Source of the DNA: Fidelibacterota bacterium | GTDB taxonomy: Bacteria; Fidelibacterota; Marinisomatia; SCGC-AAA003-L08; JACNLC01 | NCBI GenBank assembly: GCA_013204025.1 | Contig: JABMOW010000018.1 | Location: 1-64,000 of the forward strand | Length of the DNA stretch: 64,000 bases | Reading direction: 5' to 3' | Part shown: positions 35,604 through 45,177 of the stretch, one piece after another | Layout of the letters: each line of letters starts with the position of its first letter | Numbering within the stretch: the first letter of the stretch is position 1 | Translations under genes and position numbers: made by a program | Notes under the pieces: model-generated | The model's database searches: none | Seen by the model: the letters and a program-made list of their open reading frames with translations, nothing else | What the model was told of the DNA's origin: nothing

Positions 35604-35847
35604 AGATTATCTCCTCATTTGTTGTGAATGTTATTATGAAATGGTTAATTAACAGAAAAAATATACAAATGTTTAAGGGTAGAATAAAAAGAGTTATATT
35701 TTTCGAAATTCATGTATTGAATTGCTTGCGGAAAAATAGATTCATGAGTTTCGATTTTCGGAAAAAACAAGGCAAGCTGTTGACTCAAAAAAGGAACAAT
35801 TGTTATTAAATTATTCTCTCGAATCATAATCAGAAAGGAGCATTAAT

Positions 35848-36246
35848 ATGATCACAGGCGGTTGTCTTTGCGGAGAAATCCGATATGAAGCGGATGAACT
35901 TCCATCACGGGTAACCCATTGCCACTGCAAACATTGCAGGGGTAGTGCAGGAGCTGCATTCATCACGTGGGCGGAATTTGATTCGGTGACATTCAGATAT
36001 ACTCAGGGTAAACCAGAAGCATATGAATCCAGACCGAAAGTCACGCGGGAGTTCTGCTCACAATGCGGAACGCAACTCACTTATAATCATGCAGATGAAC
36101 CCGGTGTGGTGAATGTGACAGTCTGCAGTTTTGACGATCCGGCTATCGCGAAACCTGAAGATCACATTTGGTGCGATCGGAAGATCCCATGGATAAAGCT
36201 AGACGATGGACTCCCAACCTATAAATTAGGAAAGTGGGATGAATGA
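35848..36246 (+). CDS. GFA-family (CENP-V-like) zinc protein
   Basis: 132 residues with an AAGGAG ribosome binding site. Zinc cysteines of the glutathione-dependent formaldehyde-activating (GFA) fold are present: GGCLCGEIRY at the start, HCHCKHCRG at about residues 31-39, and FCSQCGTQL near 70. Many members have no shown link to formaldehyde, so function is unassigned. It overlaps the next gene by four bases. Confidence 0.88.
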   Translation: MITGGCLCGEIRYEADELPSRVTHCHCKHCRGSAGAAFITWAEFDSVTFRYTQGKPEAYESRPKVTREFCSQCGTQLTYNHADEPGVVNVTVCSFDDPAIAKPEDHIWCDRKIPWIKLDDGLPTYKLGKWDE

Positions 36247-37950: not shown

Positions 37951-38349
37951 ATGGAAAATACTGAAATAAATTCATCGGAAATTCTGCTACCGAAAATCCA
38001 CTCAACCATGATCATTTTCTACGTTACGGATCAAAAATGGTCTGCGGAATTTTATGAGAATGTGTTTGAGATGAAACCAGTGCTAGATGTCCCGGGAATG
38101 ACAGAATTTCGAATTAGTGACAGTTTATCTTTAGGTCTCATGCCGGGTGATGGAATCAAACAGTTATTGGGCGATGCCATTGAACATCCGTTTCTGCATG
38201 GAAATTCCATTCCGAGGGCAGAATTATATCTGATGGTAGATTTTCCGGAGATATGGATGGAACGAGCCATTCAGGCGGGAGCAGAGGTGGTGAGTCCGTT
38301 GAGTGAACGGGATTGGGGGGACTTGGCAGGATACGTGAAAGGATCCTAG
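37951..38349 (+). CDS. VOC-family protein, C-terminus replaced by junction sequence
   Basis: 132 residues. It has one complete VOC module (TMIIFYVTDQKWSAEFYENVF at residues 19-39, then FRISDSLSLGLMP) and the second-module start (RAELYLMVDFPEIWMERAIQAGAEVV). Family members normally continue after DWGD..GY with a metal-binding DPDGH...A stretch of 10-15 residues. Here the frame ends VKGS just after that point. The DNA at the junction continues as the tail of a serine recombinase in another frame. The last metal ligand is therefore probably missing, and activity is doubtful. Confidence 0.72.
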   Translation: MENTEINSSEILLPKIHSTMIIFYVTDQKWSAEFYENVFEMKPVLDVPGMTEFRISDSLSLGLMPGDGIKQLLGDAIEHPFLHGNSIPRAELYLMVDFPEIWMERAIQAGAEVVSPLSERDWGDLAGYVKGS

Positions 38350-38525
38350 TTGGTTTGGCAGCAGCTAGAGCAAGGGGAAATGTAGGGGGTAGGTCTAAAA
38401 AGTTGGATGATAGGAAAATTGCTCTGGCTAAATCAATGATGGCCGATACTTCAAATTCAGTAGTAGATGTATGTAAGATGCTGGGTATATCGAGAGCTAC
38501 GTTGTATCGGTATTTGAAGGAATAG
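38331..38525 (+). pseudogene. 3' remnant of a serine recombinase (resolvase/invertase) gene
   Basis: About 64 codons encode the end of a resolvase-family serine recombinase. IRERILVGLAAARARGNVGG matches the basic linker after the long helix. KIALAKSMM, VVDVCKMLGISRATLYRYL is the C-terminal helix-turn-helix that binds the crossover site. The catalytic N-terminal domain (about two thirds of the gene) is gone and replaced by the VOC gene, whose frame overlaps it to 38349. The gene keeps its natural stop and a terminator. It is a scar of a lost or rearranged mobile element. Confidence 0.82.
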
Positions 38526-38548
38526 GCTTCGGTCTATTTCTTTCTGTT
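38521..38548 (+). terminator. Terminator of the recombinase remnant
   Basis: Stem AATAGGC / GTCTATT (38521-38527 and 38532-38538; one G-U pair) closed by a UUCG tetraloop and followed by a T-rich tail. It includes the recombinase stop codon. The T-run is interrupted, so efficiency is uncertain. Confidence 0.6.
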
Positions 38549-38582
38549 AATAATTATGATAAAAGTATTGTCATTCGTGTAT

Positions 38583-39386
38583 TCAGAGTTTAATTATCTT
38601 TGACCAATCTGCGAATTTCTCATCGAAAGAATATGATGCATTCGCAGGACTAGTAGATAGTAAAGTGAAGTAAGCTATTCCATCTAATCGACTATAATAT
38701 TTATTATAAAGTTTTTCAGCTTTTTGACCGTTAAATGCAATAATTTTGATTGTAGAATTTGTTTTGAGAAAACTTTCTAAGTCATTTGAAATTTCGTCTT
38801 TTATATCTGAGTCTAAACTAGTTTCTCTTATTCCTTTATGACAAACATCCCATACCGAAATGTTCTTATTAATCAGAAAACTAACCCTATCAGAATATGA
38901 ATCTTCATGGTGGGCATCGTGTAGGTTGTAAATTAATCTCCAGAATAAATTCCTAGGATTAGCATAGTACTGTTGACGTTTAAGCGATTCTTTTCCTGGC
39001 ATGGTCCCAAGAATTAGTACTCTAGGTTTCGGGCCGAGAATAGGAGGAAATGATTTTGAATAAACTAAATTACTAGATGATCTACTCTTGGGTTCAGTAT
39101 TTGTAGCTATAATAGTGATATTGTCAGTTCTCATATGAGGTGATTCAAGTCCAGACCAAGTAATATGAAGTTTATTATTTCTGATGTGAGATGAAAAATA
39201 TATCGAATCTTTATTTGGAAGTTCATTAGACTGAAAGGTAAAAACTTGAATCTCATTTGTTTTGTTTCGACAAACATTCACAACTAGTCTATCAAATAAA
39301 AATTTGTTTTTATACCGAACACGAAAACGATCACCTGAGTTCTCTCGGTATTCGGGAATATTTCTGTTTATTGTTTTTATTGACAT
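38583..39386 (-). CDS. Hypoxanthine/uracil-DNA glycosylase superfamily protein with N-terminal extension
   Basis: 267 residues with a strong ribosome binding site (AAAAAGGAGCCTAATATG). Residues 118-267 belong to the uracil-DNA-glycosylase superfamily and best match the hypoxanthine-DNA glycosylase group. Signatures are LILGTMPGKES (125-135), YYANPRNLFWR (140-150), VWDVC, NGQKAE and STSPANA (245-251). The first 115 residues are beta-rich and unlike the short stand-alone enzymes; I recognise no domain there. It would remove deaminated adenine from DNA. The gene is in an AT-rich island downstream of several small ORFs on the same strand. Confidence 0.78.
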   Translation of the reverse strand: MSIKTINRNIPEYRENSGDRFRVRYKNKFLFDRLVVNVCRNKTNEIQVFTFQSNELPNKDSIYFSSHIRNNKLHITWSGLESPHMRTDNITIIATNTEPKSRSSSNLVYSKSFPPILGPKPRVLILGTMPGKESLKRQQYYANPRNLFWRLIYNLHDAHHEDSYSDRVSFLINKNISVWDVCHKGIRETSLDSDIKDEISNDLESFLKTNSTIKIIAFNGQKAEKLYNKYYSRLDGIAYFTLLSTSPANASYSFDEKFADWSKIIKL

Positions 39387-39491
39387 ATTAGGCTCCTTTT
39401 TCTCGAGAATAATTTATTTCATACTACTTAACTATTTTTACAAAACGTAAGTTAAAATTTTCTGATAATTGATTTACTTTCATGGGTATAA

Positions 39492-40067
39492 TCAAATTTC
39501 CCCTAATTTTGATATCCATAAAGTGAAATTTTTATCCATTCGAAATTTATAAAACCCAGTTCTTAAAATAGACATAGTGGAACTTGAATTTATTAATATT
39601 GCTGCTAAATCACGGGCCACTGCAGAGCCACTTATGTTATTAGTTACAGATCCCTCCAAAATTTCAAGATTGAAAGAATAATTTTTTCTATTTCCAACCT
39701 TAGAAAATTCAAAGGAGTTTAATTCAATCGACCCATCGGTTTCACCCTCTTCTAATATTTCAAGTATTGCTGGTGTGGTGCTTTGCCAAATATTTGTGTA
39801 TTTACCTTGTGATCCTGCTGATGGATAATAGTTTGCCATATTAAGGCTCCTTTCTGTTTTTGTTTTTGGGGAATTTCTTCTGGATTTTTTCAATTCTGCA
39901 TTTCTTTCTCTTATTGCTCTGTTTAGACATTTCTTGGAATTGAATACTTCACCCGGAAAAGATTGTTCAAGTCGCCACTCTTGTTTGCCGTGTTGTTTAC
40001 CACAATAACCACAATAATGGCCAGTCCAAGATTGAGGGAAAATTCTAAAATATGGAAAGTTTGCCAT
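39492..40067 (-). CDS. Unknown protein, possibly two in-frame products
   Basis: 191 residues with a GAGGAG ribosome binding site. Residues 19-50 hold a Cys pattern (CGYCGKQHG ... SKKC) like a small zinc finger, followed by a very basic stretch (AELKKSRRNSPKTKTERS). At residue 77 an internal ATG (39839) has its own strong ribosome binding site. The product from there (about 115 residues, MANYYPSAG...) also opens with MAN like the full protein. The downstream part is beta-rich with no known family. Either one fused protein or two nested products are made. The gap to the next gene (39387-39491) holds only a weak 19-codon ORF at 39424-39483. Confidence 0.5.
   Translation of the reverse strand: MANFPYFRIFPQSWTGHYCGYCGKQHGKQEWRLEQSFPGEVFNSKKCLNRAIRERNAELKKSRRNSPKTKTERSLNMANYYPSAGSQGKYTNIWQSTTPAILEILEEGETDGSIELNSFEFSKVGNRKNYSFNLEILEGSVTNNISGSAVARDLAAILINSSSTMSILRTGFYKFRMDKNFTLWISKLGEI
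39847..39853 (-). promoter_or_regulatory. Internal ribosome binding site
   Basis: AAAGGAG on the minus strand, seven bases before an in-frame ATG at 39839. The surrounding AAAGGAGCCTTAATATG closely matches the leader of the glycosylase gene (AAAAAGGAGCCTAATATG), which suggests the internal start is used. Confidence 0.55.
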
Positions 40068-40099
40068 TTCAGTTGACTCCTCTTATTTTTTTGAATTCA

Positions 40100-40162
40100 T
40101 TAAAATGTGTTCAATTTGCCTGATAGTTTGAATAAAAGGTTGTGTAATTTGTTTTGATACAT
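40100..40162 (-). CDS. Mini-ORF, 20 codons
   Basis: ATG preceded by AAAAGGAGAATAAA, an excellent ribosome binding site. It encodes a 20-residue basic peptide beginning MYQNKLHNLLF. It is the third of three short ORFs on this strand before the 191-residue gene. Its stop overlaps the ATG of a five-codon ORF, after which GAGGAG leads into the next gene. It could be a leader peptide or a translational coupler. No homologue is recognised. Confidence 0.35.
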   Translation of the reverse strand: MYQNKLHNLLFKLSGKLNTF

Positions 40163-40179
40163 TTTATTCTCCTTTTGTT

Positions 40180-40305
40180 TTATGCAATATCCATGTGATG
40201 TAATTGCAGTTCGGAAGCCAGTGTTGGATTTTTGATAAACCAAGTTATATTTTGATACATTATCAACAACATAAGACTTTTTATTTTATCCTTATTTTTG
40301 ATCAA
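40180..40305 (-). CDS. Mini-ORF, 41 codons (TTG start)
   Basis: The TTG at 40305 follows the preceding mini-ORF stop with no gap, and AAGGAG lies six bases upstream. The 41-residue product (MIKNKDKIKSL..., one Trp, hydrophobic middle LMLLIM) has no known family. The tight arrangement and ribosome binding site argue for translation; the length and AT-rich sequence argue for caution. Confidence 0.35.
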   Translation of the reverse strand: MIKNKDKIKSLMLLIMYQNITWFIKNPTLASELQLHHMDIA

Positions 40306-40374
40306 TTATTTCTCCTTATCAATTTTTCGATGTTGGAATATACAACAGGCACCAATGAATCGTTTAACATTCAT
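40306..40374 (-). CDS. Mini-ORF, 22 codons
   Basis: ATG at 40374 with AAAAAGGAGTTTTAAC just upstream. It encodes MNVKRFIGACCIFQHR followed by six further residues, with a Cys-Cys pair. It is the first visible member of the minus-strand chain of short ORFs. The 150 bases before it (40375-40526) hold no gene that I can support and may contain the promoter. Confidence 0.35.
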   Translation of the reverse strand: MNVKRFIGACCIFQHRKIDKEK

Positions 40375-40526
40375 GTTAAAACTCCTTTTTTGTTGATGAT
40401 TATGTCCATTCCATTGAATCCTGGACATTCTTTTTTCAAGATGTGCAGATAATGAGGATAGACACATTAATTTACGCAGTTTTCTTCTTTACTGGTATCT
40501 GGAAAATATACATTTTACATCTCAAA

Positions 40527-42754: not shown

Positions 42755-45070
42755 TTAAAATAAATACTCAAGTTCAACGGTGGCGTTTCGAGTGGCACCG
42801 GGCCAGTAATATCCATCCCAATATTCGTATCCGTATGTCTCATAGAGGGTATCGAAAACGTTGTTGACTTTGATTCGCACTGTCCACATATCTGATGTCA
42901 ACCACCAGCCCAGATTCGTGGTCCAACGCGGATCGATAGACAAAGATCTTGTGTTTGCGCTGTCGATAAACTGGCGACCCACATATTTACTGATGACAGA
43001 AATACCCGTAAACGGTTCAGGGGAGTATTGCACCGTCAGGTTCACCAATTCTTGTGGGACATTTGGGAGCTGGTTTTGCTTATGAGTTCCAGTGTGATAG
43101 GTTGCAGAGGTGATGGATCCGTTCATTTCTAAAACCAAGGTTTCTACTGGTTTAAAGACGAGTTCGAATTCAATACCTTTATGGATAGTCTCATCAGCAG
43201 TAACAATATTAAACTCTGTTTCTTCAAAATCGTAAATATCAGAAATGATCTCATTTTGGTACGTCATATGATAGTAATTCAACTTAATTGAGTGGAAGGT
43301 CTTCTTATGAGAAAACCCCAATTCGGTATCGAACACTTTTTCTGGTTGAGCGGCTTTTACGGTAGCACCAACACTATCAGCTTTAAAAATTTGTACGTCG
43401 GAAGGTTCCTTTTGTGCGGTGCCATATGATCCGAATACGGTAGTCAGGTTATCTACTTTATAGGTGAAACCCAAGCGTGGATTGAAAAAATCCCATTTTG
43501 CCGCGATATCTACACCGTTGAAATGGCCTATAGATTTTTGGATCAACGTCCAGTCATGATGCTGATATTGGAGGTCACCCGTCACAATCGTTCTTTCATT
43601 TGCATTCCAGACAGTTTGTGCGAAAAGGGTCGCAGAGGATTTTTCTCCATCAAAATCATAGTATCGAAACCAGTCAGGCATGATCGAAGTCAATGTAACA
43701 TCAGAAAAATTTGATACTTCACCGTAGTGATGCCCGGTATATTTTCGAAGTTCTGCGCCTACATCAAAGCGGAAATCTGACATCTCCATTGTTATCATTG
43801 GGGTCGTGCCGAAATATTGGTTAGTGATCCATTTTCGGCGAAGAAGATCGGTGGTCATCGCCGACTCGTCCTCATCAGTCCATGTATCGTTAATATCCAA
43901 ATTATACGAGTAAAAATCAACGCTGGATTTAGCCACTTCGTAAAATCCACTACCGGTAACCAGATAGGCTGTGTTTCGGAATACCAAGTTTTTTCTGATG
44001 GGATAAAACGAGTTCAGAGAATAGATCTGTTGTAAAAAATCATCAGTGAATGGGGTGGTCCATTCCATTTTTCCAGTGCGTTTGAGACGATCATCAACCA
44101 TATCGCGAGAGATACCATCCCACTGTAAACGACTGACTTCTTTACCGATAAGTGCGCGGAACTGGTGAGTGATTTTATCAGATTGATATTCTATCCCTCC
44201 AAAGAAAGACTGTTGATCAGATTGGGAATCATCTCGGTAGCCGTCTGATTGAAGCAGAGTAAAGCGACTCGTAAAATGGACTTTACCATCCAGCATCTCA
44301 TTTGAGAAATATTGTGTCCGGTACTTGCGTGTATTATAAGCACCGATGCTTGAAGAAACGGAAAGCTGCTCTCGGGGATGTGTAATTTGAGTCACCACGT
44401 TCACTGATCCTCCGAACGCTGCCGTACCATACAGGCTGTTCCCGATACCACGTTGGATTTCCACAACCGACGCATCGCTTAAAATATCTCCATGATCCAC
44501 CCAATACACTTGATGGCTCTCATTATCGTTCAGAGAAACACCATCCAGCATGACGGCTATCCGGCTCTGATCAAAACCGCGGATGGAAAGATAAGAGTAT
44601 CCCGTGCCATTTCCTGATTCGCTATACGCATAAATGCCAGGCTCGGATGACAGGACCATTGGGGCGTCCTCTGTTGAGTAGCGAAGTGATATTTCATCCG
44701 GTGTAACGATCGAAAAAGAAACTGGAGTAACGCCTTCTATTGTTCTGGTGGCGGAGATGGTTATATCAGGCAGATTAATTCGTCGGGGGTTCATTTCGAT
44801 GATAATGTTCACTCCAGGACCGATATACTTTACAGGTTCGTAACCGATGTGAGTAAAAGTTATCATGACTTCGTCCTCGGATGTTACAAGACTAAACTGA
44901 CCATTTGTGTTGGTCATCGAGCCTGTATTGTCATCAAGGACAACATTTACATGACTGATGGGAAGTCCGGTGGTTTTATCGAGGACTCTACCATTAGGTG
45001 AAGGCCCACCCCATAAAAAAGGAACAATAATAAAAAGAATGAATATCCGGAAAGATAGATTTTGAAGCAT
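42755..45070 (-). CDS. TonB-dependent receptor, probable thiamin (precursor) uptake
   Basis: 771 residues from the ATG at 45070. A longer frame from 45094 lies inside the riboswitch and is rejected. Order: signal peptide; carboxypeptidase-regulatory-like domain (GRVLDKTTGLPISHVNVVLDD, residues about 26-95); plug with VMLDGVSLNDNESHQVYW and VEIQRGIGNSLYGTAAFGGSVNV; barrel ending ATVELEYLF. A GGAGG site eight bases upstream is part of the riboswitch. Thiamin-regulated TonB receptors (OMR1 type) are known in Bacteroidota, and the riboswitch is the main evidence for substrate here. Confidence 0.9.
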   Translation of the reverse strand: MLQNLSFRIFILFIIVPFLWGGPSPNGRVLDKTTGLPISHVNVVLDDNTGSMTNTNGQFSLVTSEDEVMITFTHIGYEPVKYIGPGVNIIIEMNPRRINLPDITISATRTIEGVTPVSFSIVTPDEISLRYSTEDAPMVLSSEPGIYAYSESGNGTGYSYLSIRGFDQSRIAVMLDGVSLNDNESHQVYWVDHGDILSDASVVEIQRGIGNSLYGTAAFGGSVNVVTQITHPREQLSVSSSIGAYNTRKYRTQYFSNEMLDGKVHFTSRFTLLQSDGYRDDSQSDQQSFFGGIEYQSDKITHQFRALIGKEVSRLQWDGISRDMVDDRLKRTGKMEWTTPFTDDFLQQIYSLNSFYPIRKNLVFRNTAYLVTGSGFYEVAKSSVDFYSYNLDINDTWTDEDESAMTTDLLRRKWITNQYFGTTPMITMEMSDFRFDVGAELRKYTGHHYGEVSNFSDVTLTSIMPDWFRYYDFDGEKSSATLFAQTVWNANERTIVTGDLQYQHHDWTLIQKSIGHFNGVDIAAKWDFFNPRLGFTYKVDNLTTVFGSYGTAQKEPSDVQIFKADSVGATVKAAQPEKVFDTELGFSHKKTFHSIKLNYYHMTYQNEIISDIYDFEETEFNIVTADETIHKGIEFELVFKPVETLVLEMNGSITSATYHTGTHKQNQLPNVPQELVNLTVQYSPEPFTGISVISKYVGRQFIDSANTRSLSIDPRWTTNLGWWLTSDMWTVRIKVNNVFDTLYETYGYEYWDGYYWPGATRNATVELEYLF

Positions 45071-45076
45071 TTTGTT

Positions 45077-45177
45077 TTCCTCCGCTAGCATCATCTAGAT
45101 CAGGTTCAAGGGTATGTTCTCAGACATTCATCATGTGGCAGTTTCTGTTTTTACTGCATGAATGACACCCCTAACAG
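45077..45177 (-). promoter_or_regulatory. TPP (thi-box) riboswitch
   Basis: On the minus strand the conserved elements appear in order: GGGGTGTC, an extended P3 arm (CATTCATGCAGT pairing with ACTGC...ATGAATG), CTGAGA, ATACCC, GAACCTGATCTAGATGATGC and TAGCGGAGG. This is the TPP aptamer with minor changes (CTAGATGATGCTAGCG for CTGGATAATGCCAGCG, which keeps the pairing). The GGAGG at 45079-45083 is both the aptamer's last segment and the ribosome binding site of the receptor gene. Ligand binding would therefore block translation. Confidence 0.95.

Follow-up and report, generated by a model that had tools for sequence, protein, structure and literature searches.

Short reading frames with strong ribosome binding sites in a Fidelibacterota genome: probably the 5' end of an eroded, acquired operon

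Does a run of very short reading frames, each with a strong ribosome binding site (RBS), represent a set of small genes, a regulatory leader, or something else? Such a run is present in the window, the stretch of 64,000 nucleotides of Fidelibacterota DNA (contig JABMOW010000018.1, positions 1 to 64,000) analysed here, where a sequence-only reading had described minus-strand ORFs of 22, 41, 20 and 5 codons in series, leading into a 191-codon gene and a DNA glycosylase gene. We find all four ORFs on the minus strand between 40374 and 40068, with the 191-codon gene (40067-39492) and then the glycosylase gene (39386-38583) downstream, the order from 40374 down being ORF1, ORF2, ORF3, a mini-ORF, the 191-codon gene and the glycosylase gene. 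The chain and the gene that it leads into are as follows:

40306 to 40374, minus strand: ORF1, 22 codons, ATG start, MNVKRFIGACCIFQHRKIDKEK
40180 to 40305, minus strand: ORF2, 41 codons, TTG start immediately after the ORF1 TAA
40100 to 40162, minus strand: ORF3, 20 codons, ATG start, MYQNKLHNLLFKLSGKLNTF
40083 to 40100, minus strand: mini-ORF, 5 codons, ATG start, overlapping the ORF3 stop (TAATG)
39492 to 40067, minus strand: 191-codon gene, with an N-terminal CxxC...C zinc-finger-like module and a C-terminal domain
39837 to 39853, minus strand: internal start, AAAGGAGCCTTAATATG, within the 191-codon gene and in frame at the domain linker

An AAGGAG-type site had been claimed before each of the longer ORFs, and AGGAG is indeed positioned 7 nt before the ATG of ORF1 (within the Shine-Dalgarno [SD] sequence AAAAAAGGAG), 6 nt before the TTG of ORF2, and 6 nt before the ATG of ORF3 (within AAAAGGAG). 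The 5-codon mini-ORF, read directly, is without an SD of its own, and the 191-codon gene has AGGAG 9 nt before its ATG at 40067. Stops and starts had been said to abut or overlap, and this holds at two of the four junctions (TAA directly followed by TTG, and TAATG); the remaining junctions leave 17 and 15 nt between stop and start, and each of these gaps contains the next SD. ORF1 and ORF2 share one frame, divided by a single TAA, and the ORF1 frame stays open upstream as far as an ATG at 40467. The ORF2 SD could therefore be incidental, as it corresponds to Lys-Glu codons (AAG GAG) lying within ORF1, the first part of this split frame.

One explanation for the chain is chance, in that AT-rich DNA yields many short frames, commonly abutting, and AAGGAG is easily made in A-rich sequence; one of the four SDs is, after all, the Lys-Glu codon pair of ORF1. 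However, four AGGAG sites and five SD-plus-start pairs are present within 422 nt, two of the ATGs sharing an SD, and the maxima over 5000 dinucleotide-preserving shuffles were two AGGAG sites and three pairs; none of the shuffles reaches the observed count, although these figures are somewhat flattered by the region having been picked for its striking look. The chain is also the densest SD-plus-start stretch of the window when both strands are compared. In the 3.15-Mb genome as a whole the AAGGAG-N4-8-ATG pattern has 175 sites and its reversed form 125, so that strong sites are sparse; four of them fall inside 1 kb at the chain. Among 177 other long host genes, taken from 243 kb of host sequence, a strong SD precedes 29 (16%), whereas ORF1-ORF3 and both long genes of the AT-rich islet described below are all preceded by one. 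Strong SDs are no commoner in AT-rich host genes (two of 19), so AT-richness does not explain the excess. The density is thus, as had been proposed, unlikely to have arisen by chance, an account that the shuffles and the host-gene background speak against and that we hold to be very improbable.

The RBS style of the chain is a local one, alien to what is usual in the host. The sequence AAAGGAGNNTTAAYATG was composed from the chain sites themselves, such that the informative part is its rarity elsewhere, and it has exactly three copies in the 3.15-Mb genome: two inside the islet, at ORF1 and at the start codon within the 191-codon gene, and one at 35834-35850, before a GFA-family gene beginning at 35848. 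This GFA-family gene (35848-36246, plus strand) lies on the opposite strand to the islet genes and ~2.5 kb outside the islet, and the shared rare motif may reflect a related acquisition. The assembly of the window genome yielded no 16S 3' end; the anti-SD (CCTCC) is kept in seven relatives. Bacteroidetes and certain other phyla are established as low users of SD sites (PMC5397173), and our literature search found no paper combining Neomarinimicrobiota with Shine-Dalgarno.

The setting of the chain is an islet delimited by composition and synteny, which contains or is bordered by several further features:

38330 to 40525, no strand: AT-rich islet, ~2.2 kb
39424 to 39495, minus strand: stub, 23 codons, TTG start overlapping the stop of the 191-codon gene
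38583 to 39386, minus strand: DNA-deoxyinosine glycosylase gene (TIGR04274), SD AAAAAGGAG
38313 to 38525, plus strand: serine recombinase fragment, C-terminal (HTH_7) with the 5' part missing, marking the left edge of the islet
37951 to 38349, plus strand: VOC/glyoxalase gene, cut short at about 38335, the point at which the recombinase fragment starts

The G+C content of the islet is mostly 30-34%, compared with about 37-46% in the flanks. No synteny for the islet was found in relatives and, with regard to an empty site, the neighbourhood is kept in no relative. Repeats in the region are short and uninformative, and no attC sites of the kind that flank integron cassette genes were convincing by eye. 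The glycosylase scores 186.9 bits against TIGR04274, for which the curated cut-off is 80; it has an extra N-terminus of ~110 residues with no family match, and most relatives in the class match just the C-terminal part. A second serine-recombinase C-terminus, with an in-frame stop and 72% DNA identity to the fragment at 38313-38525, is located in another genome (G049, L003 1501-1703), and such remnants thus recur in the class. Elsewhere in the window, a TPP riboswitch (Rfam RF00059; 45060-45182, minus strand) is positioned at the beginning of a gene for a TonB-dependent receptor (42755-45094), which is followed by a sodium/solute symporter-like gene, likely constituting a thiamine uptake operon.

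The islet is unlike the host in both composition and RBS style, and holds parts of genes that occur whole elsewhere, namely the stub, the recombinase C-terminus and the truncated glyoxalase. The explanation that we favor, with a probability of about 0.6, is that the chain forms the 5' end of an eroded AT-rich mosaic operon (about 38.33-40.52 kb), gained by horizontal transfer into the genome of a marine bacterium of the Neomarinimicrobiota in which strong SD sites are otherwise seldom used. It is supported by the SD excess over both shuffles and host genes, by the low G+C and absence of synteny, and by decay inside the islet, as seen in the stub and in the recombinase fragment lying against the truncated glyoxalase. 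The genes would have arrived with strong AAGGAG sites, together or in turn, presumably from a donor whose habit of translation initiation was different and perhaps aided by the recombinase that is now a fragment. Later deletions, stops and replacements would then have clipped several genes to leave their start regions and tails, with ORF1/ORF2 (one frame split by a stop) and ORF3 as putative remnants that keep their RBS, and the 23-codon stub before the glycosylase gene as a frame that lost the rest of its gene; the survivors would be the 191-codon zinc-finger gene and the deoxyinosine glycosylase. Ribosomes may still initiate at the chain sites, given that relatives keep the CCTCC anti-SD, and could pass to the 191-codon gene.

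The chain had also been likened to phage or regulatory leader regions, and neither likeness was borne out. Islet sequences have no matches among phages and viral contigs, and the islet proteins give only weak PHROG scores; we therefore rejected an origin as a phage early region. The leader RNA is predicted to be no more structured than its shuffles (z = 0.03) and has no Rfam match, and there are no terminator-like sites on the minus strand between 38200 and 40900, leading us to discard a structured leader, attenuator or riboswitch.

A homologous operon is present in Candidatus Neomarinimicrobiota D37C17 (SCKP01000042; referred to here as G008), a member of the same taxonomic order as the window genome. 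The ORF2 tail, the zinc-finger/DUF7664-like gene and the start of the next gene are kept in the same order in G008, but ORF1, ORF3 and the 5-codon frame are missing, the zinc-finger gene has no strong SD before it, the downstream 208-codon gene is intact, and no glycosylase gene adjoins. The shared part of ORF2 is a 58-nt block matching its last 19 codons and stop (40236-40180), which in G008 abuts the zinc-finger gene directly, and ORF3 and the mini-ORF are therefore not fixed operon parts. Nothing aligns upstream of this block, and in DNA alignments none of ORF1, ORF3 and the 5-codon frame is matched in the G008 locus. Comparison of the two loci thus indicates that the ORF1-ORF3 chain is not a fixed feature of the zinc-finger operon.

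The same comparison bears on the origin of the stub. In G008 the zinc-finger gene is followed by the 208-codon gene, whose TTG start overlaps the zinc-finger stop. The stub is 78% identical in DNA to the start of this gene and ends where a Trp codon of the G008 gene is TAG in the window, with homology stopping soon after. We take this as direct evidence that a whole gene in the islet has shrunk to a short frame. The 208-aa G008 protein (L002 1281-1907) has motifs that, as read by eye, recall GIY-YIG nucleases (GVYIV...ILYIGKA), and has no Pfam match; its relatives on plasmids of actinobacteria are distant, sharing 29-34% identity across roughly half of the protein, and do not reveal the origin of the chain. 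For the chain itself, a DNA search of 245 phylum genomes gave short AT-rich matches whose low scores do not exceed chance, and revealed no relative of ORF1, ORF2 or ORF3 that is both longer and intact. As no intact ancestor was found, the status of ORF1-ORF3 rests on the stub analogy, from which we infer that they are remnants of clipped genes.

A different interpretation treats ORF2, or just its final 23-26 codons, as a conserved small protein, such as a partner or regulator of the zinc-finger protein. Its relative occupies the same operon position in G008, and alignment scores above those of all shuffles (protein score 47, maximum 43 in 2000 shuffles; nucleotide score 36, maximum 33 in 1000) indicate that the similarity is real. 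The 17 changes are distributed as 5, 3, and 9 at codon positions 1, 2, and 3, and in a simple simulation the frame and residues are kept this well with P of about 0.01. The stop is common to both but the start is not conserved, and the G008 relative is likewise a short frame, of 23-37 codons. However, the 70% DNA identity of the ORF2 tail is lower than the 78% that these two loci share over the dead stub, and shared descent could thus suffice for the likeness, and the family has two members only. The ORF2 peptide pattern does not occur again in 245 phylum genomes, although it was derived from the same two matches, and ORF2 has no match in viral contigs or plasmids. A host-trained codon-usage model favors ORF2, but the two training sets disagree on it; with the islet-trained model ORF3 and the stub resemble non-coding controls and ORF1 is ambiguous, the test having little power at 20-41 codons. 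The suggestion that these frames encode small proteins thus survives, faintly, for the ORF2 tail, whose changes lean towards the coding type against a single comparison locus; ORF1 and ORF3 have no counterpart there. We consider a conserved ORF2 protein distinctly doubtful; if real, it would be a small protein linked to an undescribed zinc-finger family. A bolder combination, in which the ORF2 tail is a 23-26-residue protein travelling with a new modular zinc-finger family and the stacked RBSs are also a portable translation-forcing device of foreign operons in a low-SD host, appears improbable.

An eroded, acquired islet is further supported by the ORF1/ORF2 split frame, the absence of ORF3 and the mini-ORF from G008, and the non-coding character of ORF3 and the stub. 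Two observations count against erosion: the G008 relative of the ORF2 tail is itself a short frame with changes that lean towards coding constraint, and well-spaced SDs before dead frames would be surprising if the decay were not recent and nothing else preserved the sites.

A further explanation is a translation-coupled leader, in which the mini-ORFs with their strong SDs capture ribosomes and pass them to the 191-codon gene, with the peptides themselves being irrelevant. From the spacing, coupling into the 191-codon gene is possible, with stop and start abutting or overlapping at two junctions, short gaps elsewhere, and well-spaced SDs, and there are precedents. Delivery of ribosomes by short upstream ORFs through translational coupling has been discussed and reviewed for bacteria (PMC12548453), and these share short SD-bearing frames near a downstream start, but here several frames are chained, they are not conserved, and no occluding RNA structure is predicted. 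In the axe-txe toxin-antitoxin operon, a minigene of just two codons acts in cis to increase Txe translation (PMC8708949), and is likewise a very short frame ahead of a gene, although no toxin-antitoxin pair is recognised here and the frames are longer and several. However, the 191-codon gene has its own SD, the arrangement is replaced in G008 by a single short frame abutting the zinc-finger gene, and a leader RNA no more structured than shuffles leaves little for coupling to relieve. A dedicated leader should show conservation or occluding structure, and the finding of neither counts against it; we regard this explanation as unlikely.

A full homologue of the 191-codon gene is found in one other genome (G008) among 245 of the phylum, where the 176-aa protein is 56% identical, and a second genome (G224) shares only the N-terminal zinc-finger module, attached to another C-terminal domain. 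The C-terminal domain of the 191-codon protein is weakly like DUF7664, below the curated cut-off, and a predicted structure of poor quality (mean pLDDT 59.5, two sequences) gave no significant PDB match. No plasmid relatives were found of the gene, the zinc-finger module or ORF2. The zinc-finger-like module (CxxCG...W R...VF.xKKC; window 40067-39850, minus strand; L024 1498-2001 in G224) spans ~70 residues, is joined to differing C-terminal domains in different Neomarinimicrobiota, and has no convincing Pfam, PHROG or NCBIfam match. Initiation at the internal start of the 191-codon gene would give a 115-aa form. A strong SD and in-frame ATG are also positioned at the domain linker in G224 (AAGGAGGAGCAATG, L024 about 1710-1725), where they precede the unrelated C-terminal domain. 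These internal starts may allow separate production of the C-terminal domain, or may reflect fusions of joined genes, each with its own RBS.

A string of convincing RBSs can therefore mark acquired, eroding DNA instead of a set of mini-genes, which is a caution for small-ORF prediction and offers a marker of foreign DNA in low-SD hosts. The chain differs from acquired-gene remnants in other bacterial islets in that no parents of ORF1 and ORF3 have turned up and in the unusually good preservation of its start signals. It shares with them the low G+C, the lack of synteny, the recombinase fragment, the truncated genes both at the edge and inside, and the foreign-style RBSs, and as such looks like another case of an eroding acquired islet, mostly ordinary, and not a purpose-built set of mini-proteins.
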